Positions 16,124 through 25,512 of a DNA stretch of 33,133 nucleotides are shown here, piece after piece. The notes beneath the pieces are model-generated. The model saw only the letters and a list, made by a program, of their open reading frames with translations. It was not told where the DNA came from and did no database searches. The stretch is taken from positions 1-33,133 of the forward strand of contig JAILKH010000113.1 in NCBI GenBank assembly GCA_024693925.1, given 5' to 3'. A program made the position numbers and the translations under genes. This DNA is from Lachnospiraceae bacterium. Its GTDB lineage: Bacteria; Bacillota; Clostridia; Lachnospirales; Lachnospiraceae. Numbering within the stretch: the first letter of the stretch is position 1; the number at the start of each line of letters is the position of its first letter.

Positions 16124-17056
16124 ATGGCAAAAATATATAAAAGTCAGTTGGATCTTATTGGGAACACACCGTTAGTAGAGGTGATAAATATTGAAAAGTA
16201 TCTAAATCTTGAGGCTACAGTACTGGTGAAATTGGAATATTTTAATCCCGCCGGCAGCATTAAAGACCGAATTGCAAAAGCAATGATCGAGGATGCAGAG
16301 GCAAGGGGACTTTTAAAGAAGGGATCTGTAATAATAGAACCGACCAGTGGAAATACCGGTATAGGACTTGCATCGATAGCTGCATCGAAAGGATATCGTA
16401 TTATCTTAACAATGCCTGAGACCATGAGTGTGGAAAGGAGAAACATTCTAAAGGCATACGGGGCCGAACTGGTGTTGACGGAAGGCGCAAAAGGAATGAA
16501 GGGAGCGATCGCAAAGGCAGAAGAACTTGCAAAGGAAATTCCGGACAGTTTTATACCGGGGCAGTTTACGAATCCGGCAAATCCGGCGATACATAGGGCA
16601 ACGACCGGTCCGGAGATATGGAAGGATACTGATGGAAAGGTTGATGTATTTGTTGCCGGAGTCGGAACCGGAGGAACACTTACAGGTGTGGGAGAATATT
16701 TGAAAGAACAAAACCCTGATATCAGGATTGTTGCGTTGGAACCCGAAGATTCACCGGTTCTTTCGGAAGGAAGGGCAGGATCTCACAAAATTCAGGGTAT
16801 CGGTGCCGGATTTGTACCGGAGATTCTTAATACGGATGTATATGATGAGATTTTTAAAGCTTCAAATAAAGATGCGTTTGAAACAGCAAAATTATTAGCG
16901 AAAAAAGAAGGGATATCTGTAGGTATATCCTCCGGAGCAGCTCTTTACGGAGCGATTACCTTAGCGCAGCGTCCGGAAAATAAAGGTAAGACGATCATAG
17001 CCCTGTTACCCGACAGTGGCGACAGATATTATTCTACAGCTTTGTTTGCGGAGTAA
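16124..17056 (+). CDS. cysK: Cysteine synthase (O-acetylserine sulfhydrylase)
   Basis: A 310-residue PLP fold-type II enzyme making cysteine from O-acetylserine and sulfide. The PLP lysine is K47 in [11 protein letters not shown], the phosphate/substrate loop is [12 protein letters not shown], and the glycine-rich cofactor cup is [27 protein letters not shown] is also typical of CysK. It is the last gene of the nifS-nifU-cysK operon, so cysteine is made beside the enzyme that consumes it for Fe-S assembly. In several Firmicutes CysK also binds the Rrf2 regulator CymR to sense O-acetylserine; whether that holds for the Rrf2 gene here is a hypothesis. No strong terminator follows before the trp leader promoter at 17104. 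Confidence 0.93.
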
Positions 17057-17103
17057 TAATGACACGTGTAGTAAAGTAATTATAAAATTATTATAAAAAA
17101 ATA

Positions 17104-17133
17104 TTGACATGGCATAGCCGTTTATGTTTTAAT
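17104..17133 (+). promoter_or_regulatory. Promoter of the trp T-box leader
   Basis: A perfect TTGACA (17104-17109) with TTTAAT (17128-17133) 18 bases downstream lies just before the T-box stem I. A long leader of roughly 400 bases then precedes trpE. Confidence 0.6.
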
Positions 17134-17149
17134 TACTACAATTAAATAG

Positions 17150-17438
17150 ATTAAACCTGTGAAGCGGAAGAAAAAGTATTTTATCGCCGGAAGTTTACAG
17201 CGAGCCCGGGATGGTGTAAGCCGGGTGGTATGAGGAATACGTGGATTGATTTCCTTATATGGGCCGCGGAGGGCATGGGGAAAGGATTTTATCTTAGTAT
17301 CCGTGACGTGAGGCATACGTTAGTTGTCTGGGGTATGATGGTATCCTGTAAAGAGCACGGTTGTTTCGTGAATCAAGGTGGCACCGCGGATAGATGATTA
17401 TTCGTCCTTGGCAGAGTTTATTCTGTCAAGGATTTTTT
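17150..17438 (+). promoter_or_regulatory. T-box leader controlling the trp operon
   Basis: This leader binds uncharged tRNA and lets transcription continue only when charging is low. The diagnostic T-box AAGGTGGCACCGCGG is at 17375-17389, and the terminator stem it competes with is at 17405-17438. Stem I is visible: AGCGAGCCCGGGATGGTG with GTAAGCCGGG forms the apical hairpin, and GCGG/CCGC closes the base. The downstream genes imply tRNA-Trp, so the specifier should be UGG. UGG triplets occur at 17242-17244 (in ACGTGGATT) and 17260-17262 (in ATATGGGCC), and I cannot decide between them without folding. Class and position are secure; specifier identity is inferred. Confidence 0.92.
17405..17438 (+). 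terminator. T-box regulated terminator
   Basis: TCCTTGGCAGA (17405-17415) pairs with TCTGTCAAGGA (17422-17432) with one G-U pair, followed by TTTTTT. Its left arm overlaps the region that would pair with the T-box to form the antiterminator. Confidence 0.9.
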
Positions 17439-17535
17439 GTTTTCAAAATCCGTAACACATCAGATTGAAAGCAGATTAACTGATGTAAAGGATTAATACA
17501 AAATCATATCAGGTATACAAAAGAAAGGGGGAACC

Positions 17536-19011
17536 ATGAAATTATTGCAAAGTTATTCGGATATCAGAGAAATTTCAGAAAAACAACAGTATAAAGTTAT
17601 TCCCATATGCGGGGAACTTTTATCGGATTTTACAACTCCGATCGAAATTTTAAAAATTCTTAAAAAAGCATCGGGACATGTATATATGCTGGAATCAGCC
17701 AGAGCGGATGACAAATGGGGAAGATATACTTTTTTGGGGTATGATCCGTTGATGTGTATTACTTGCAGGGACGGGGAATTGGTCATCAAAGATAAATCAG
17801 TAAAAACAAATGATCCGTCCGGTTATATAAGGGAGATACTTAAAGATTATACAAGTCCTTTGATGAGCGGATTGCCTCCCTTTACAGGGGGATTGGTCGG
17901 ATATTTTTCCTATGATTATCTTGGATACAGTGAACCCAAAGCCAGAGGAAGATTGAATAAAGAAAATTCGGATGATTTTTATGATGTTGATCTGATGCTT
18001 TTTGATAAAGTCATAGCTTTTGATAATGTGCGTCAAAAGATTCTTCTTATTGCAAATATGAGATGTGAGGATGAAGAAGACGGATATAACACAGCAGTAA
18101 GTGAACTTAAAAGTATGGAATGGCTTATAAAGAACGGAGAAAAATCGGAATTTAATTCCGGATGTCTTTTGGGTGAGGTTACACCTTTGTTTGATAAAGA
18201 AAAATATTGTGAAATGGTAAATAAAGCAAAAGATCATATTAAAGAGGGAGATATTTTTCAAATAGTTTTATCAAACCGGTTAAGTGTCCCGTTTGAAGGA
18301 AGTCTGCTTGATACCTACAGAATGTTAAGAACTGTAAATCCGTCTCCTTATATGTTTTATTTTTCGGGAACAGATATTGAAGTTGCCGGTGCTTCTCCCG
18401 AAACACTGGTTAAGCTTGAAGACGGTGTACTTCATACTTTTCCGTTAGCAGGTACAAGACGTCGGGGAAGTAGCGAAGCAGAGGATGAAGCGTTGGAGAA
18501 AGAACTCCTGGCAGATGAGAAGGAACTGGCAGAGCATAATATGCTGGTGGATCTTGGAAGAAATGATCTTGGAAAGATTTCCGAGTTTGGAACCGTAGAA
18601 GTAGAGAAGCTTCGCAGTATTGAGAGATTTTCGCATGTTATGCATATAGGATCAACGGTAAGAGGAAAAATACGTAAAGATAAAGATGCATTGGATGCAA
18701 TAGAGGCGGTTCTTCCCGCGGGAACTCTTTCGGGCGCTCCCAAAATCAGGGCGTGTGAGCTTATAAGTGAATTTGAAGGAAATAAGAGGGGGATATATGG
18801 CGGAGCCATCGGCTACATAGATTTCAGAGGAAATATGGATACCTGTATTGCAATCCGGCTTATATATAAAAAGGGAGAAGAAGTATTTGTCAGAAGCGGA
18901 GCGGGGATAGTGGCAGATTCCGATCCGGAAAAAGAATTTGAGGAATGTATGAATAAGGCAAGGGCTTCATTAATGTCTTTGGAGCTTGCACAGGAAAAAA
19001 CCGAAATATAA
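17536..19011 (+). CDS. trpE: Anthranilate synthase component I
   Basis: A 491-residue chorismate-binding enzyme that with TrpG makes anthranilate from chorismate and glutamine, the committed step to tryptophan. The N-terminal regulatory region contains MLESARADDKWGRYTFLG (from residue 51), whose LES motif matches the tryptophan feedback site. The catalytic domain (residues about 220-480) has NPSPYMFYF, ASPETLV, PLAGTRRRG, LVDLGRNDLG, PAGTLSGAPKIRA and GGAIGYIDFRGNMDTCIAIR, the full set of chorismate-binding motifs. It is the first gene after the T-box leader, and its ATG follows AAAGGGGGAACC. No PabB features stand out, and the trp context settles the assignment. Confidence 0.96.
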   Translation: MKLLQSYSDIREISEKQQYKVIPICGELLSDFTTPIEILKILKKASGHVYMLESARADDKWGRYTFLGYDPLMCITCRDGELVIKDKSVKTNDPSGYIREILKDYTSPLMSGLPPFTGGLVGYFSYDYLGYSEPKARGRLNKENSDDFYDVDLMLFDKVIAFDNVRQKILLIANMRCEDEEDGYNTAVSELKSMEWLIKNGEKSEFNSGCLLGEVTPLFDKEKYCEMVNKAKDHIKEGDIFQIVLSNRLSVPFEGSLLDTYRMLRTVNPSPYMFYFSGTDIEVAGASPETLVKLEDGVLHTFPLAGTRRRGSSEAEDEALEKELLADEKELAEHNMLVDLGRNDLGKISEFGTVEVEKLRSIERFSHVMHIGSTVRGKIRKDKDALDAIEAVLPAGTLSGAPKIRACELISEFEGNKRGIYGGAIGYIDFRGNMDTCIAIRLIYKKGEEVFVRSGAGIVADSDPEKEFEECMNKARASLMSLELAQEKTEI

Positions 19012-19060
19012 CAAATAATAAAGAATGATATAAAACAAAAAGGAAAAAGGAGGAGACGGA

Positions 19061-19627
19061 ATGGTTTTACTTATTGATAATTATGATAGTTTTTCTTATA
19101 ACCTGTATCAATATGTCGGTGAGCTGGATCCGGATATAGTTGTAATAAGAAATGATGAAAAGACCATTGAACAGATAAGGGAAATGAGACCTAAAAGTCT
19201 TATTATTTCTCCGGGGCCGGGCAGACCGGAGGATGCAGGAATAATAATCGAAGTAATAAGAAAACTTAGAGGGGAAATTCCGATTCTGGGTGTTTGCCTG
19301 GGACATCAGGCCATTTGTTCCGCATTTGGGGCAACAATAACGTATGCTTCCCGGCTTATGCATGGAAAACAGTCATTGGTGCGGATAAATAATGAAGTTC
19401 CGATATTTAAGGGCTTAAATAAAGAAATATATGTGGCAAGGTATCATTCCCTGGCGGTTGATGAAACTACAATCCCAAAGGAACTTATAAGTATAGCCAT
19501 GACTGAAGACAGGGAAGTGATGGGGGTTATGCACAGAGATTATCCGATATACGGAGTCCAGTTTCATCCGGAATCCATAATGACACCGGAGGGGAAAAAG
19601 ATATTGAGGAATTTTATTAATTTATAA
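19061..19627 (+). CDS. trpG: Anthranilate synthase component II, glutamine amidotransferase
   Basis: A 188-residue class I glutamine amidotransferase supplying ammonia to TrpE. The catalytic triad is visible: C79 in LGVCLGHQAI, and H169 with E171 in VQFHPESIMTPEG. The oxyanion/PGPGRPEDAG loop is at residues 51-60. It is a separate gene here, not fused to trpD as in some other bacteria. It lies 49 bases after trpE with AAAAGGAGGAG before its ATG. The same protein may also serve aminodeoxychorismate synthase (PabA role), as is common when only one copy exists, but no pab gene is seen in the window. Confidence 0.95.
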   Translation: MVLLIDNYDSFSYNLYQYVGELDPDIVVIRNDEKTIEQIREMRPKSLIISPGPGRPEDAGIIIEVIRKLRGEIPILGVCLGHQAICSAFGATITYASRLMHGKQSLVRINNEVPIFKGLNKEIYVARYHSLAVDETTIPKELISIAMTEDREVMGVMHRDYPIYGVQFHPESIMTPEGKKILRNFINL

Positions 19628-19659
19628 GGATAGTGTAAAGCAACATATAAAATCATGAA

Positions 19660-19677
19660 CCGGAATAAGGATTCCGG
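19660..19677 (+). repeat. Perfect hairpin between trpG and trpD
   Basis: CCGGAAT (19660-19666), loop AAGG and ATTCCGG (19671-19677) form a perfect 7-bp stem in the 95-base gap between trpG and trpD, the longest gap inside the operon. No T-run follows, so it is more likely an RNA processing or stability element than a terminator. Confidence 0.5.
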
Positions 19678-19722
19678 CAGAAGGCGAGATTAATGTCAAA
19701 TTAAATTTAGGAGGAAAATAAG

Positions 19723-20742
19723 ATGATAAAAGAGGCAATAGTAAAGATTGTTAATAAAGAAGATTTAACTTATGATGAAGCATATGCAGTGATGAATGAA
19801 ATTATGAGCGGTGAAACTTCGGCAACCCAGAATGCGGCTTTTTTGGCATCGTTATCAACAAAAAGTGCAAAGGCTGAGACCACGGATGAAATAGCGGGTT
19901 GTGCTTCGGCGATGAGGGATCATGCAATAAAAGTTGATACAGGAATGGATGTTCTGGAAATAGTCGGAACAGGCGGCGATAATGCCGGAAGTTTTAATAT
20001 ATCTACTACATCGGCTTTAATATGTGCGGCAGGAGGAATAAAAGTAGCTAAACACGGAAATCGTGCGGCATCATCATTATCCGGAACGGCCGATTGTCTT
20101 GAAGCTTTGGGAGTTAATATAGATCAAAGTCCCGAAATGTGTATTAAGCTCCTTAAAGAAGTGGGAATATGTTTTTTCTTTGCGCAAAAGTATCATACTT
20201 CAATGAAATATGTGGGAGCTATCCGCAAGGAATTGGGATTCAGGACGGTATTTAATATATTGGGTCCTTTAACGAATCCCGCAATGCCGTCTATGCAGCT
20301 TCTGGGGGTTTATGATGATTATCTTGTGGAACCCCTTGCCCGGGTACTTGCAAATCTTAATGTTAAACGTGGAATGGTGGTATACGGAATGGATAAGCTT
20401 GATGAAATATCTTTGTCTGCTCCGACAAAAATATGTGAAATAAGGGATGGATGGTATAAAACGTTTATTATAAAGCCTGAGGATTTTGGGTTTGAAAGAT
20501 GTTCAAAGGAAGATCTTAAGGGTGGTTCGCCCAAAGAAAATGCAGAGATCACACGTGGAATTCTTAAGGGTAAGAAAGGGCATAAGAGAAATTCCGTGCT
20601 TCTTAATGCCGGTGCCGGATTATATATCGGAGGGAAAGCGGATAGTTATAAAGACGGAGTCTGTCTTGCGGCAAGTATAATTGATTCCGGTAAAGCAATG
20701 GAAACATTAAATAAATTTATTGCATTAAGTAATGAAAAGTAA
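19723..20742 (+). CDS. trpD: Anthranilate phosphoribosyltransferase
   Basis: A 339-residue enzyme transferring phosphoribose from PRPP to anthranilate. Family hallmarks are the PRPP-binding loop [35 protein letters not shown] for anthranilate contacts, [22 protein letters not shown] and [11 protein letters not shown]. The fold starts with the helical domain including [31 protein letters not shown] precedes ATG 19723. It is monofunctional and separated from trpG by a 95-base gap carrying a hairpin. Confidence 0.96.
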
Positions 20743-20803
20743 TATCTAAGTATATAATTGTGCCGGCAGTAAGATACTGTAGGGCAAAGGATGGAGGTTT
20801 TAT

Positions 20804-21586
20804 ATGAGCATATTGGATGAACTGGCGGCATATGCAAGAATAAGAGTCGAAAAAGCAAAAGAGATAAAATCTTCGAATGAGATATGTCAGGAAGCCTTTA
20901 AAATCGATAAGGGAAATAATGCCTTTGAAAAAGCCGTTAAAAGCAAGGAACTGTCTTTTATATGTGAATGTAAAAAAGCATCTCCTTCAAAAGGGATAAT
21001 AGCCGATGACTTTCATTATTTGGATATTGCACTTGATTATGAAAGAGCCGGTGCGGACGCTATATCCGTATTAACGGAACCTAAGTGGTTTCTTGGACGC
21101 GATGAGTACCTTGAAAAAATATCAAAGGCTGTCAAGTTACCCTTGCTCAGAAAGGACTTTACCGTTGATGAATATATGCTTTATGAAGCTAAGATCATGG
21201 GGGCTTCTGCAGTATTGCTTATCGTTGCCATATTACAGCCTGCGGAGATTAAAAGATACCTGGCGATAAGTGAGGAATTGGGATTATCAGCGCTTGTTGA
21301 ATGTCATGATGAAAAGGAAGTTGATACGGCATTGGAATCGGGAGCCCGTATTGTGGGAGTAAATAATCGTAATCTTAAGGATTTTTCGGTAGATATAACC
21401 CTGGGAGAAAAATTGAGAAAACAAATCCCCGAGTCGGTTGCTTTTGTATCTGAGAGTGGGATAAGAAATGCGGAGGACGTAAGAAGGTTACGAAGTATAG
21501 GTGCAGATGCTGTACTTATAGGTGAAACTTTGATGAAGGCAGAAAACAGAGTTGAAATGTTAAACACTTTAAGGGGAAAATCATGA
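20804..21586 (+). CDS. trpC: Indole-3-glycerol phosphate synthase
   Basis: A 260-residue TIM-barrel enzyme closing the indole ring in tryptophan synthesis. Catalytic residues are seen in the first strand, FICECKKASPSKG (E55, K57), in the strand LLRKDFTVDEYML, in LVECHDEKE, in VGVNNRNLKDFSVD and in the phosphate-binding end AVLIGETLM. It has the normal length of the monofunctional form and is not fused to TrpF. RBS GATGGAGG precedes ATG 20804. Its stop overlaps the trpF start by four bases (ATGA), indicating translational coupling. Confidence 0.96.
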   Translation: MSILDELAAYARIRVEKAKEIKSSNEICQEAFKIDKGNNAFEKAVKSKELSFICECKKASPSKGIIADDFHYLDIALDYERAGADAISVLTEPKWFLGRDEYLEKISKAVKLPLLRKDFTVDEYMLYEAKIMGASAVLLIVAILQPAEIKRYLAISEELGLSALVECHDEKEVDTALESGARIVGVNNRNLKDFSVDITLGEKLRKQIPESVAFVSESGIRNAEDVRRLRSIGADAVLIGETLMKAENRVEMLNTLRGKS

Positions 21587-22194
21587 CCGGGATTAAGTTA
21601 TGTGGTATTAAACGTTTGGAAGATATAAATACAATAAATGATATTAAGCCGGAATATGTGGGATTTGTATTTGCAAAAACCAGTAAGAGGTTTCTTGAAA
21701 AAGATGAGGCGATAAGGTTAAAGAAGGTAATTGATCCCTGTATAAAAACCGTAGGTGTCTTTGTTGATGAAGATATGGAAAGTATATTAAGACTGAGTGA
21801 TGCCGGAATTCTCGATATGGTACAGCTTCACGGATGTGAAGATGAGAAGTATATTTTGAATATCAAAAGAGAAATTAATAAACCGGTTATTAAGGCTTTT
21901 CAGGTTAAAGGAAGGGAAGATGTTGTTGAGGCATCGGAGTGTATGGCAGATCATATTTTGCTGGATGCAGGTACCGGGGATGGAAGAGTATTTGACTGGG
22001 ATCTGCTAGGGGGAATCAAAAGACCTTATTTTCTGGCAGGGGGATTGAATTGTAATAATGTTGTTGATGCTGTTAAACGATTAAATCCTTATGCGGTTGA
22101 TGTAAGCTCCGGAATAGAAACAAACGGTATTAAGGATGCCGTGAAAATGGTTGAATTTGTTAAAAAAGTCCGATCTATAGGACATAAGTTATAA
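21583..22194 (+). CDS. trpF: Phosphoribosylanthranilate isomerase
   Basis: A 203-residue TIM-barrel isomerase converting phosphoribosylanthranilate to the enol-ribulose form. The catalytic cysteine is C7 in GIKLCGIKRLED; the general acid aspartate lies in LLDAGTGDGRVFDWDLL; the phosphate-binding motifs FLAGGLNCNNV and AVDVSSGIETNGIKD close the barrel. The usual GxGxxFDW loop reads DGRVFDW, a modest variation. Its start overlaps the trpC stop by four bases. Confidence 0.95.
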   Translation: MTGIKLCGIKRLEDINTINDIKPEYVGFVFAKTSKRFLEKDEAIRLKKVIDPCIKTVGVFVDEDMESILRLSDAGILDMVQLHGCEDEKYILNIKREINKPVIKAFQVKGREDVVEASECMADHILLDAGTGDGRVFDWDLLGGIKRPYFLAGGLNCNNVVDAVKRLNPYAVDVSSGIETNGIKDAVKMVEFVKKVRSIGHKL

Positions 22195-22254
22195 AAATCA
22201 AGGACAGTTTTATAAGCTATTGTATTTTGGTCTGATAAATTAAGGAGAAAACAA

Positions 22255-23448
22255 ATGAGTGATAAAAAAGGAAGATTCGGTATTCATGGCGGTCAATACA
22301 TACCGGAAACATTGATGAATGCAGTGATAGAATTGGAAGAAGCATATAATAGGTTTAAAGATGACCCGGATTTTATAAAAGAATTGTCAGATCTTTTTAA
22401 TGATTATGCGGGTCGTCCTTCCAGATTATACTTTGCCGAGAGGATGACACAGGACCTGGGGGGAGCAAAGATATATTTAAAAAGAGAGGATTTAAATCAT
22501 ACGGGTGCACATAAGATAAATAATGTCCTGGGTCAGGCGTTGCTTGCAAAAAAAATGGGAAAAAGAAGACTTATAGCCGAGACGGGAGCAGGTCAGCATG
22601 GGGTGGCCACGGCCACGGCAGCAGCGCTTATGGGTTTGGAATGTGTCGTATTTATGGGAGAGGAAGATACTAAACGACAAGCGCTTAATGTATATAGAAT
22701 GAGATTGCTGGGCGCCGAAGTTATTCCGGTTACTTCCGGCACAGGGACACTGAAGGATGCTGTATCGGAGGCTATGCGGGAATGGACCCGAAGAATTGAA
22801 GATACACATTATTGTCTTGGATCGGTAATGGGACCTCATCCCTTTCCTACGATCGTGAGAGATTTTCAGGCGGTTATTTCCAAAGAGATCAAATCCCAGA
22901 TTCTTGAAAAGGAAGGGAAGTTACCGGATGCTGTTATAGCCTGTGTGGGAGGAGGATCAAATGCTATCGGGAGCTTCTATAATTTTATAGAGGATAAATC
23001 TGTTAGGCTGATAGGGTGTGAAGCGGCCGGAAGAGGTGTTGATACTCTTGAAACAGCTGCTACCATCGCTACGGGAAGAGAGGGTATATTTCATGGAATG
23101 AAATCATATTTTTGCCAGGATGAGTTTGGGCAGATAGCTCCTGTATATTCTATTTCCGCAGGTTTGGATTATCCCGGAATAGGTCCCGAGCATGCGTATC
23201 TTCATGATACAGGAAGGGCAGAATATGTTCCGGTTACTGATGAAGAGGCAGTTGAGGCCTTTGAGTATTTAGCAAAAACAGAGGGAATAATACCGGCAAT
23301 CGAATCTGCGCATGCAGTTGCATATGCCACAAAGATAGCACCGGACATGGATAAAGACCGTATAATCGTGATCACGTTGTCGGGACGAGGAGATAAGGAT
23401 TGTGCAGCGATAGCCAGATACCGCGGAGAGGAGAATATTTATGAGTAA
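22255..23448 (+). CDS. trpB: Tryptophan synthase beta subunit
   Basis: A 397-residue PLP fold-type II enzyme joining indole and serine to give tryptophan. The PLP lysine is K87 in [15 protein letters not shown], the substrate carboxylate loop is [13 protein letters not shown] with the catalytic glutamate, and GGGSNAIG binds the PLP phosphate. LSGRGDKD near the C-terminus is also standard. It belongs to the TrpB1 type paired with TrpA. RBS AAGGAGAAAACAA precedes ATG 22255, and the gene overlaps trpA by eight bases, favouring equal synthesis of the two subunits. Confidence 0.97.
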
Positions 23449-24214
23449 TATAAAAAAAGCATTTGAAAAAGGTAAAGCGTTTATTCCGTTTATTACTTGC
23501 GGTGATCCCGATCTTGAAACAACAAAGGCCTGTGTTCTTGCTATGGTGCAAAATGGTGCTGATCTGATAGAACTTGGAATTCCTTTTTCCGATCCTACAG
23601 CTGAAGGACCGGTAATACAGGCGGCAAATGAAAGAGCGCTTCAGGGAGGAGTAACTACAAGTAAAATATTTGAATTTGTAAAGGATTTAAGAAAGACCAC
23701 GGATATACCGATGGTTTTTATGACTTATGCAAATGTTGTGTTTTCATACGGTGCTGAAAAATTTATAAAGCAGTGTATGGAAACCGGAATAGACGGAATA
23801 ATATTACCGGATCTTCCTTTTGAGGAAAAAGAAGAGTTCTTACCGGTATGTCATAAATATGGAGTTGATCTTATTTCTTTTATCGCGCCCACTTCCAAGG
23901 ATAGGATTAAAATGATAGCAAGTGAAGCGGAAGGATTTCTTTACATTGTTTCTAGTCTTGGTGTTACGGGAACAAGAAGTGAAATAACTACAGATATAGA
24001 ATCCATTGTTAAAGCCGTAAGAGAAAGCACGGATATCCCTTGCGCTATAGGGTTTGGTATATCAACTCCTGAGCAGGCAAAAAAAATGGCCGGATTTTCC
24101 GATGGTGCAATAGTGGGTTCTGCTATTATTAAGCTTATCAATGAAGGTAAAGAGGATGCGGCAGCAAGAGTGGGTGAGTATGTTTGCCGTATGAAAGAAG
24201 CAATCGGGGATTGA
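23441..24214 (+). CDS. trpA: Tryptophan synthase alpha subunit
   Basis: A 257-residue TIM-barrel subunit that cleaves indole-3-glycerol phosphate and passes indole through the tunnel to TrpB. The catalytic glutamate is E44 in [12 protein letters not shown]. The second catalytic position, Asp60 in the E. coli enzyme (LADGP), is a glutamate here, E55 in [20 protein letters not shown] and [10 protein letters not shown] form the phosphate site. The acidic group is kept, so activity is expected, and I believe this variant is common in clostridial TrpA. It is the last gene of the trp operon, with its start inside trpB. Confidence 0.95.
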
Positions 24215-24239
24215 CGTTTTCCTATCGATATGTTAGGAT
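24211..24239 (+). promoter_or_regulatory. Possible promoter of the DAHP synthase leader
   Basis: TTGACG (24211-24216) and TAGGAT (24234-24239) are 17 bases apart. The predicted transcript would start near 24246, just before the Shine-Dalgarno sequence TAGGAGA and the ATG of the 38-codon leader frame. The -10 box has two mismatches, so the promoter is tentative. Confidence 0.4.
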
Positions 24240-24263
24240 TTACTTGTTTTTTAGGAGATTGTT

Positions 24264-24380
24264 ATGAGTAAAATATTTTTATTGCCAAATGCATATTTCT
24301 TTTATGGCCTGTATTTTTGCTTTACGGGCTTTTTTGCGTGGTTTATGTTTAAGGATAATTTATATCGGGATAAAGAATAG
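24264..24380 (+). CDS. Aromatic-rich 38-residue peptide, putative leader peptide
   Basis: A short frame starting at ATG 24264, seven bases after a good Shine-Dalgarno AGGAGA, reads MSKIFLLPNAYFFYGLYF then CFTGFFAWFMFKDNLYRDKE. Nine Phe, four Tyr and one Trp make up 14 of 38 residues. It lies between trpA and DAHP synthase and ends 20 bases before a strong terminator. The TAG stop codon (24378-24380) is part of a segment that can pair with the terminator's left arm. I interpret it as a leader peptide whose translation senses charged aromatic tRNAs. The alternative is that it is a chance frame, made Phe-rich by the T-rich terminator-like hairpin at 24307-24335, or a small membrane peptide. Confidence 0.5.
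   Translation: MSKIFLLPNAYFFYGLYFCFTGFFAWFMFKDNLYRDKE
24307..24335 (+). terminator. Terminator-like hairpin inside the small frame
   Basis: GCCTGTA (24307-24313) pairs with TACGGGC (24323-24329) with one G-U pair and a 9-base loop, followed by TTTTTT (24330-24335). It could be the terminator of the trp operon or a first structure of the DAHP synthase leader. It begins about 90 bases after the trpA stop. Confidence 0.6.
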
Positions 24381-24419
24381 ATGCTTTGATGAATATATTG
24401 ATCGGTTCTATCCTTTATC
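24369..24419 (+). promoter_or_regulatory. Putative antiterminator pairing
   Basis: GATAAAGAATAG (24369-24380), which includes the leader stop codon, is complementary to CTATCCTTTATC (24408-24419) at 11 of 12 positions, with one A-C mismatch. This pairing would use six of the thirteen left-arm bases of the terminator at 24401-24432 and so prevent it from forming. Confidence 0.5.
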
Positions 24420-24439
24420 GGATGGAACCGATTTTTTTT
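24401..24439 (+). terminator. Strong terminator upstream of DAHP synthase
   Basis: ATCGGTTCTATCC (24401-24413) pairs with GGATGGAACCGAT (24420-24432) over 13 bp with one G-U pair and a 6-base loop, followed by an eight-T run ending at 24439. It sits 45 bases before the DAHP synthase start, in its leader, which is the position of an attenuator. Confidence 0.9.
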
Positions 24440-24483
24440 GATTCAAGTTTTGTTATAGCTATAAAAAAGGAGGAGATAGTGTA

Positions 24484-25512
24484 ATGAATATGGATTTTGA
24501 AAGACAACTTGCAGTACCTATGGAAGTAAAGGAAATGTACCCGATCACAGGTAAAATGGGTGAAGTGATCGGTGAAAAACGGGCACAGATAAGGTCTATT
24601 TTTGAAGGTAGAAGTAATCGCTTATTGCTTATAATCGGTCCATGTTCTGCGGATAATGAGGATAGTGTGCTGGATTATATTTCCCGGTTATGTCCGCTTC
24701 AGGAAAAAGTAGAGGAGAAGATACTTATAGTTCCGAGAATTTATACAAATAAACCGAGAACTACGGGAGAAGGGTATAAAGGAATGTTGCATCAACCGGA
24801 TCCTTCCGGTAAATCGGATCTGTTTAAAGGAATTGCGGCAACAAGGCATATGCATATCCGTGCCGTTAGAGAGACTGGTTTTGCCTGTGCCGATGAGATG
24901 TTATATCCTGAAAATTATCAATATCTTGATGATCTTCTGGGATATGTAGCTGTGGGAGCACGTTCTGTGGAGGATCAGCAGCACAGACTTGTTGCCAGCG
25001 GTGTGGATGTTCCCGTCGGTATGAAAAATCCTACCAGTGGTGATTATACGGTTATGATGAATGCTATCCTTGCGGCTCAGCATCCGCATACGTTTATCTA
25101 CAGAGGCTGGGAAGTGCGTTCCGGAGGAAATTCACATGCACATGCTATTCTCAGAGGATCTACAGATAAACATGGGCAGCCTCAGCAGAATTACCATTAT
25201 GAAGATCTTATACGTTTGTGTGATTATTACGATAAAAGAGAATTGGATAATCCCGCAGTTATTATTGACTGCAATCATTCGAATTCGGGGAAAAATCCCT
25301 ATGAACAGCCACGTATAATAAAAGACGTGCTTAATTCCGCACGTCATAGTGATCGTATTACCCGGATACTTAAAGGTTTTATGGTAGAAAGCTACATAGA
25401 AGACGGTAGTCAGGAAATTGGAGGCGGGGTGTATGGAAAATCCATAACAGATGCCTGCCTTGGATGGGATAAAACCAGGGATCTTATTTTGAATATTGCC
25501 GAGCATCTGTAA
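24484..25512 (+). CDS. 3-deoxy-7-phosphoheptulonate (DAHP) synthase, type I AroFGH class
   Basis: A 342-residue enzyme condensing phosphoenolpyruvate and erythrose 4-phosphate, the first step of the shikimate pathway feeding chorismate to TrpE. Class I motifs are LLIIGPCSADNEDS, YTNKPRTTGEGYKG, GFACADEML, VGARSVEDQQHR, PVGMKNPTSGD, IDCNHSNSGK and GGGVYGKSITDACLGW, which together carry the metal and substrate ligands. The N-terminal 30 residues correspond to the region that shapes feedback inhibition in E. coli enzymes, but which amino acid inhibits it cannot be told. RBS AAAAAGGAGGAGATAG precedes ATG 24484. It is separated from the trp operon by the 38-codon frame and a strong terminator, so it is likely regulated independently, probably by attenuation. 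Confidence 0.95.
   Translation: MNMDFERQLAVPMEVKEMYPITGKMGEVIGEKRAQIRSIFEGRSNRLLLIIGPCSADNEDSVLDYISRLCPLQEKVEEKILIVPRIYTNKPRTTGEGYKGMLHQPDPSGKSDLFKGIAATRHMHIRAVRETGFACADEMLYPENYQYLDDLLGYVAVGARSVEDQQHRLVASGVDVPVGMKNPTSGDYTVMMNAILAAQHPHTFIYRGWEVRSGGNSHAHAILRGSTDKHGQPQQNYHYEDLIRLCDYYDKRELDNPAVIIDCNHSNSGKNPYEQPRIIKDVLNSARHSDRITRILKGFMVESYIEDGSQEIGGGVYGKSITDACLGWDKTRDLILNIAEHL

Follow-up and report, generated by a model that had tools for sequence, protein, structure and literature searches.

A putative Phe- and Tyr-sensing leader-peptide attenuator between trpA and a DAHP synthase gene in a Lachnospiraceae bacterium

Background

Descriptions of how low-GC Gram-positive bacteria control aromatic amino acid synthesis usually invoke T-boxes, TRAP or repressors. 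Classical leader-peptide attenuation of these pathways is represented by E. coli pheL/pheA and trpL, which have the Rfam families Phe_leader and Trp_leader. The DNA analysed here, a stretch of 33,133 nucleotides hereafter called the window, corresponds to contig C24 in a 3.05-Mb Lachnospiraceae genome of 201 contigs. It carries the genes trpE to trpA followed by a DAHP synthase gene, and an original prediction, made from the sequence alone, placed a putative ribosome-mediated attenuator in the gap between them.

The trp operon and its downstream gap

The features of the locus are the following:

17150..17412, + strand: T-box leader upstream of trpE (Rfam RF00230, 66 bits, E 5.2e-13)
17536..24214, + strand: trpE, G, D, C, F, B and A (open reading frames, names read by eye from translations)
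24211..24239, + strand: possible promoter TTGACG-17-TAGGAT (9/12 matches), overlapping the trpA stop
24484..25512, + strand: DAHP synthase of the aroFGH type, the putatively regulated gene (TIGR00034 aroFGH, 259.8 bits; PF00793)

The gene order is trpE, trpG, trpD, trpC, trpF, trpB, trpA and DAHP synthase, with trpA ending at 24214 and a gap of 269 bases (24215-24483) before the last gene. The original prediction had described the trp operon as controlled by a T-box. A match to RF00230 does lie at 17150-17412, at a score below the Rfam gathering score (66 vs 93 bits); UGG at 17242-17244 occupies what we take to be the specifier place. This is the only T-box in 17000-24600 (Rfam, E<=5), and the gap itself has none. 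The Rfam Phe and Trp leader families match neither the window at gathering scores nor 17000-24600 at E<=5. The sole Rfam match in the gap, snoR144 with E 1.6, was judged a chance match.

The possible promoter was also part of the original prediction. Its motif is present, and TG precedes the -10 element. However, it is weak, and the region holds no excess of such sites over shuffled sequences (4 observed versus a mean of 7.9). Transcription reading through from the trp operon would do as well.

Leader frame, terminator and competing pairings

Six further features lie within the gap:

24253..24257, + strand: Shine-Dalgarno sequence AGGAG of the leader frame, six bases from the ATG at 24264
24264..24380, + strand: leader peptide frame of 38 codons, 14 of them aromatic (no Pfam match, E<=0.01)
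24306..24330, + strand: hairpin within the leader frame that runs into a U run (-10.6 kcal/mol, z -4.3)
24369..24380, + strand: region 2, which forms the antiterminator's left arm and takes in the stop codon (11/12 pairs with 24408-24419)
24408..24419, + strand: region 3, common to antiterminator and terminator, i.e. the end of the left terminator arm plus the loop (from folding and pair counts)
24400..24439, + strand: intrinsic terminator (stem 24400-24433, T run 24432-24439)

The leader peptide, MSKIFLLPNAYFFYGLYFCFTGFFAWFMFKDNLYRDKE, contains 9 Phe, 4 Tyr and 1 Trp, has a hydrophobic, aromatic core and a charged C-terminus, and ends at the TAG codon 24378-24380. The sequence bears out the frame as predicted, and its composition is rare by chance: a Shine-Dalgarno-preceded frame with at least 14 aromatic residues arose in 15 of 5000 dinucleotide shuffles of the gap. 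The terminator with its eight T's (24432-24439), followed by DAHP synthase, proved equally sound; its stem has 14 pairs counting G-T, and 24402-24440 folded alone gives -19.6 kcal/mol (z -6.0). The pairing claimed between the last twelve leader bases and 24408-24419 likewise holds at 11 of 12 positions, a degree of complementarity that only 9 of 3000 shuffles of the leader end reached.

Folding was run with the free end of the RNA set as if the ribosomal A site were at Phe27 or Phe29, assuming a ribosome reach of about 15 bases. With the ribosome stalled there, the 2:3 pairing forms with P 0.91 before region 4 is transcribed. Once the ribosome is at the stop codon, region 2 is covered, on the same assumption about reach, and only the terminator can form. 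In the fully transcribed RNA the terminator is more stable than 2:3; therefore, the switch must be kinetic. The antiterminator uses the loop-side six bases of the left terminator arm (24408-24413) together with the loop. Part of the rest of that arm is also paired in the predicted fold, and the antiterminator is predicted to exclude the whole terminator stem.

Unlike the sister form described below, the window showed no 1:2 hairpin protecting region 2 in folding. Such a hairpin is common in attenuators of the trp/phe type and is not required for the stall logic. The 2:3 pairing still forms without a ribosome (P 0.91), and thus untranslated RNA would read through unless the hairpin inside the leader frame stops it. 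This inner hairpin spans 24306-24335 with its U run and has a counterpart (z -3.9) in the leader of the genome's own pheA gene (locus L203, 1073-1098). In both leaders, the hairpin and U run could halt untranslated transcripts or pause the polymerase.

Proposed mechanism

Anatomy, order of folding (2:3 before the right terminator arm is made) and the relatives described below all support the mechanism originally proposed. We consider it very probable that the gap contains an attenuator of transcription, ribosome-mediated and of the trp/phe type, which senses the charging of Phe- and Tyr-tRNA and follows a Trp-type T-box. RNA polymerase that arrives from the trp operon, starts at the weak 24211 promoter, or both, would transcribe the leader frame with a ribosome following. 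When Phe- or Tyr-tRNA, and perhaps Trp-tRNA, is scarce, the ribosome would stall among codons 11-29, leaving region 2 free to pair with region 3 once the latter is made. The terminator would then be blocked and DAHP synthase transcribed. When charged tRNA is ample, the ribosome would proceed to the stop codon and cover region 2, and the terminator would end transcription. Judging from codon positions, the stall codons are most likely Tyr11 to Phe29; a ribosome halted at Tyr34 would already be covering region 2. Given the T-box upstream, Trp would gate DAHP synthase by way of read-through, and Phe and Tyr would do so locally. The sequences themselves show the frame, that both pairings can form, the kindred elements in relatives and, in the sister form, the match between leader codons and the gene that follows. 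From the codons, and from that match in relatives, we infer that Phe and Tyr are the amino acids sensed; translation of the leader, ribosome stalling and use of the promoter are predicted parts of this reading.

Distribution of the arrangement

DAHP synthase was sought in 200 genomes of the family (173 matched), in 37 genomes of the genus (31 matched) and in a named collection, from which the best 80 of 589 relatives were taken. This gave 140 loci with DAHP synthase, 3 of them the window's own. Among the other 137 loci, 132 have the full 500 bases upstream, while L031, L035 and L027 have 195, 124 and 57; 135 upstream ends are distinct. The window leader is present in none of the 137 upstream regions (up to 500 bases). 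It is also absent from the 600 bases downstream of trpA in all 30 trpA loci other than the window's own, and no other trpA lies directly before DAHP synthase among the loci examined. In L117, both genes are present about 1.4 kb apart. Among the genomes examined, the order trpA, leader, DAHP synthase is thus peculiar to the window genome. The check proposed with the original prediction, an alignment of this gap across relatives, thus found no second trpA-DAHP synthase junction to align, and comparative evidence was drawn from pheA and prephenate dehydratase operons instead.

The nearest DAHP synthase relatives, in G233 (91%) and G203 (90%), have different neighbours; in G203, the preceding gene was read by eye as tyrA. 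In L088 (87%), the contig ends just before prephenate dehydratase and the upstream leader region is missing. Searching with the leader peptide itself gave a best match outside the window's own genome of E 0.036 in the 37 genus genomes (E<=10), and five such matches with E 0.005-0.007 in 397 family genomes (E<=0.01). Two of these five were inspected (L199 and L201), and nothing resembling the leader was seen. Loose aromatic reading frames without a terminator in four other loci (L024, L054, L098 and L121) were put down to chance.

Leaders of the window form

The collected loci (2.18 Mb, both strands counted) were scanned for short aromatic-rich frames preceded by a Shine-Dalgarno sequence and followed by a terminator. 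Ten hits were obtained, the window and nine others, of which seven precede prephenate dehydratase or chorismate mutase-prephenate dehydratase genes; the exceptions are in L030 and L031. One element of this kind is found in the window's own genome, before the chorismate mutase-prephenate dehydratase gene pheA (contig C43, L203 985-1210, about 50100-50330). Its leader peptide includes ...SSYIYLCLFTYAGFFAYYYYFINKLKYIV, and its terminator has a left arm like that of the window and a poor U run. A stretch of 13 bases, GGCTTTTTTGCGT, is common to the two own leaders in the same frame. The peptides give no BLASTP hit and no significant similarity. The DNA similarity is modest, being reached by 44 of 2000 shuffles (10 of 2000 under another scoring) and, under the first scoring, by 19 of 1189 real control pieces. 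These figures are no more than suggestive of paralogy between the two leaders.

Kindred elements of the window form precede prephenate dehydratase genes in L203, L096, L002 and L092. A model, R1, was built from the window, L203, L096 and L002, the last two being near-identical. Its strong matches in the 397 family genomes are confined to the own genome and the training genome G120, and in the 37 genus genomes to the own genome. In the 80 named loci it recovered the training member L096 and the unseen L092 (47.5 bits, E 3.7e-5), in which the leader MTTFTFFIVLISIILIFAFTKKGRAR lies upstream of prephenate dehydratase. L092 is also weakly matched by the model of the sister form, R2 (27.5 bits, E 0.0023), and may link the two forms. 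The 24 non-training hits of R1 in family and genus were taken as plain terminators: 22 have no aromatic Shine-Dalgarno-preceded frame on scanning, L353 and L356 have weak ones, and L345-L348 and L384 were read by eye.

Pairs were counted in five sequences (window, L203, L096, L002 and L092), with the register set by hand. For 2:3, they number 11, 9, 10, 10 and 9 of 12, and for 3:4, 10, 10, 10, 9 and 10 of 10. Only 1 of 2000 column shuffles equalled the paired cells of 3:4. The paired cells of 2:3 do not beat column shuffles (204/2000) in these five sequences, two of which are near-identical. Double-change pairs number 2 and 4, and column shuffles reached the 3:4 count in 283 and the 2:3 count in 386 of 2000 cases. 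In folding, L096 favours another 2:3 register (P 0.27). In this small set of window-form sequences, therefore, there is good support for the terminator, whereas the antiterminator is only consistent with the sequences; support for the alternative pairing comes mainly from the sister form.

A wider survey covered 174 loci with pheA-type genes, scanned for at least four aromatic residues in twelve followed by a terminator. Twenty-nine passed; among them are duplicates of the same locus, true sites picked in the wrong frame, L328 and the weak candidate leader of L205. From other genera, 110 loci (L233-L342), which are better-scoring places and not a random sample, contributed 109 scans (L300 was too short) and a single pass, L328. 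The latter was judged a chance find, with 14 codons, a terminator 104 bases on and a distance of 673 bases to the prephenate dehydratase domain. At the leaders of ten relative loci, no convincing Rfam match was obtained at E<=1, the Phe and Trp leader families included.

The sister form

The sister form (type 1), which is better conserved than the window form, comprises 13 distinct leaders before prephenate dehydratase-DAHP synthase operons. Twelve genus genomes carry it, as does G080. Its peptides mostly end in ...F(T)SDRCKGxL. The figure of 12 in 37 genus genomes, counted among the collected loci, is a lower bound; 30 of the 37 have a prephenate dehydratase match. All three helices are well kept. 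In 1:2, 99.2% of cells are paired, with 1 double-change pair, a number reached by 129/500 shuffles; in 2:3, 98.2%, with 3 such pairs (5/500) and a number of double-change cells reached by 0/500; in 3:4, 98.3%, with 2 pairs (16/500). Kinship alone can beat shuffles without structure in such statistics. Slid versions of the helices drop to 15.6-59.2% paired, a comparison in which the structures are favoured, having been drawn from one member sequence.

R2, built from the sister form, gave 36 matches in the 397 family genomes (E<=0.1), two of them in the training genomes G193 and G080. Eight others, in seven genomes, have a Shine-Dalgarno sequence, an aromatic leader and a terminator:

G386: leader MNRSNMMTTSFAFFFAFTSNRCKGDL (R2 E 4e-20), before prephenate dehydratase, then DAHP synthase
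G413: leader MKQNLFSSSYYYFYFTI (E 5e-7), before DAHP synthase, prephenate dehydrogenase next
G264: leader MKEFDNSTIYFYWFFFAGLTE (E 6e-6), before DAHP synthase, prephenate dehydrogenase next
G251: leader MSTVSFTKAYYYYRNLT (E 2e-5), before DAHP synthase, prephenate dehydrogenase next
G254 C40 (L370): leader MKRLYDIANKFWWRLTKY, with Trp-Trp (E 2e-4), before a TrpB-like gene
G361 C6 (L371): leader MNIFASERYYYSYVPTQYLRG, Tyr-rich (E 1e-3), before a sodium:solute symporter
G254 C12 (L390): leader MNRKYNFTYYYFYFNFTDRK, Phe/Tyr (E 5e-3), before DAHP synthase
G053 C31 (L397): leader MNKTHSFAFSFSFFFSFTDDDGRVDLRC, Phe-rich (E 5e-2), before a phenylacetate-CoA-ligase-like gene

Six of the eight leaders precede aromatic-synthesis genes, and in these the codons agree with the gene: Phe codons stand before prephenate dehydratase, Tyr or Phe/Tyr codons before DAHP synthase (four cases) and Trp-Trp before the TrpB-like gene. 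In G254 there are two copies, which differ in their codons, and each suits the gene behind it. The exceptions are G361, whose symporter is possibly an aromatic amino acid transporter, and G053, whose ligase-like gene scores 503.8 bits against a cut-off of 646.3. The remaining 26 matches have no aromatic leader (23 read by eye; L379, L381 and L383 scanned). Among loci already collected, R2 found real leaders in L092 and L099, a terminator in L124 and a lost leader in L038/L222. In the latter (both G212 C83), region 3 and the terminator are kept, and, as read by eye, the end of the upstream gene seems to have taken the place of the leader frame. The peptide and terminator of L397 resemble those of L099, which lie upstream of prephenate dehydratase.

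An alignment (A8) of eleven members with Phe, Tyr or Trp leaders contains a motif close to GGUURAUUUGYGAUGC after the 1:2 hairpin. In Phe leaders the motif lies in frame, in L367-L370 and L390 it is found past the stop codon, and in L371 across it. We give an even chance to the possibility that these elements constitute a modular aromatic attenuator of some Lachnospiraceae. It would have a single RNA core (1:2 hairpin, the motif, antiterminator and terminator) into which Phe, Tyr, Phe/Tyr or Trp-Trp leaders are inserted, with the window as a divergent offshoot. Under such modularity, the motif, being kept even beyond the stop codon, would have an RNA role of its own.

Alternative explanations

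One alternative is that the trp operon simply ends in an ordinary terminator without regulation, that DAHP synthase is transcribed from elsewhere, and that the frame is a chance reading frame in T-rich DNA. The terminator is indeed strong by itself, the neighbourhood is not conserved, and a Shine-Dalgarno-preceded frame of at least 38 codons appeared in 147 of 5000 shuffles of the gap. However, chance accounts poorly for the aromatic content and for the complementarity of the leader end, or for kindred parts before Phe-pathway genes in relatives, and the promoter scan of the stretch from 24439 to 24484 found nothing promoter-like on the + strand. We regard this explanation as improbable. Even smaller is the chance that a leader-peptide attenuator is present but responds to another cue, such as a general slowing of translation, an inhibitor or the untranslated inner hairpin. 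The occurrence of that hairpin and its U run inside both own leaders, and the formation of 2:3 without a ribosome, would suit such a cue, whereas the fit between codons and pathway in six of the eight sister-form finds argues for sensing of the amino acids themselves.

The hydrophobic aromatic core, charged C-terminus and good Shine-Dalgarno sequence would also befit a functional small membrane protein, the RNA pairing being secondary. Yet the frame has no Pfam match and overlaps the antiterminator, the peptides of relatives are alike in little beyond their aromatic content, and sister-form leaders differ in their aromatic residue according to the gene behind. A membrane protein is in our view very improbable indeed.

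Relation to known systems

Like the E. coli pheL/pheA and trpL attenuators, the window element has a leader rich in end-product codons, a 2:3 antiterminator competing with a 3:4 terminator, and a region 2 located where the frame ends. Unlike them, it has a longer leader with mixed Phe, Tyr and Trp codons and without an Rfam match, its gene is a DAHP synthase behind a T-box trp operon, and no 1:2 hairpin was found. The kind is thus already known from E. coli pheL.

By their published descriptions, it is known also from DAHP synthase genes of other lineages. In Corynebacterium glutamicum, an actinobacterium, a leader with Phe-Tyr-Phe and a predicted attenuator is described for aroF (PMC4046766), likewise upstream of DAHP synthase. 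The Acholeplasma aroF candidate uORFC-13-1, as described, has the same layout as the window in another lineage: a uORF with at least one Phe codon, an intrinsic terminator and then DAHP synthase (PMC8632094). According to a figure legend, uORFs with Phe and Tyr codons, like the window's, adjoin genes of shikimate metabolism (PMC6429828, Fig. 6). Classical leader-peptide attenuation, at histidine genes, was reported in Firmicutes in 2010 (PMC2965389) and extended in 2022 in a paper that names the B. cereus group, Peptostreptococcaceae with Lutispora, and Erysipelotrichales (PMC9413887). With the His leaders, the Phe/Tyr uORFs before shikimate genes and the Corynebacterium aroF leader in print, as far as these descriptions go, the original statement that a peptide attenuator would be unusual in Firmicutes was too strong. 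No report of aromatic leader peptides in Lachnospiraceae was found in a literature search whose scope mostly excluded subscription journals.

The sister form can also be compared, by description, with SRC-39-1, a motif sometimes located before trpB (PMC11109978). It consists of two hairpins: the right shoulder of the first holds the antiterminator, and the second is a terminator. Its authors regard it as a riboswitch candidate and do not rule out a classic attenuator. The sister form shares this layout and has one member before a TrpB-like gene, and the trpB candidate may be the same element. The aromatic attenuators described here offer a way into the RNA motifs that have been reported close to trpB and to shikimate genes.

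If the modular attenuator is real, the set would fill the role that the T-box has elsewhere, and the window offshoot, placed in series behind a Trp T-box, would let Trp and Phe/Tyr act separately on one DAHP synthase. Lachnospiraceae leader attenuators, with codons mostly following the regulated branch, would represent a second sensor of tRNA charging, here in series with a T-box. The window system would allow the integration of three end products at a single DAHP synthase to be tested in a simple way.

Taxonomic labels of close DAHP synthases

DAHP synthases 71-79% identical to that of the window occur in seven loci (L089, L092, L094, L095, L098, L100 and L118) of assemblies labelled Treponema or other spirochaetes. 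These may be either mislabelled bins or cases of gene transfer.
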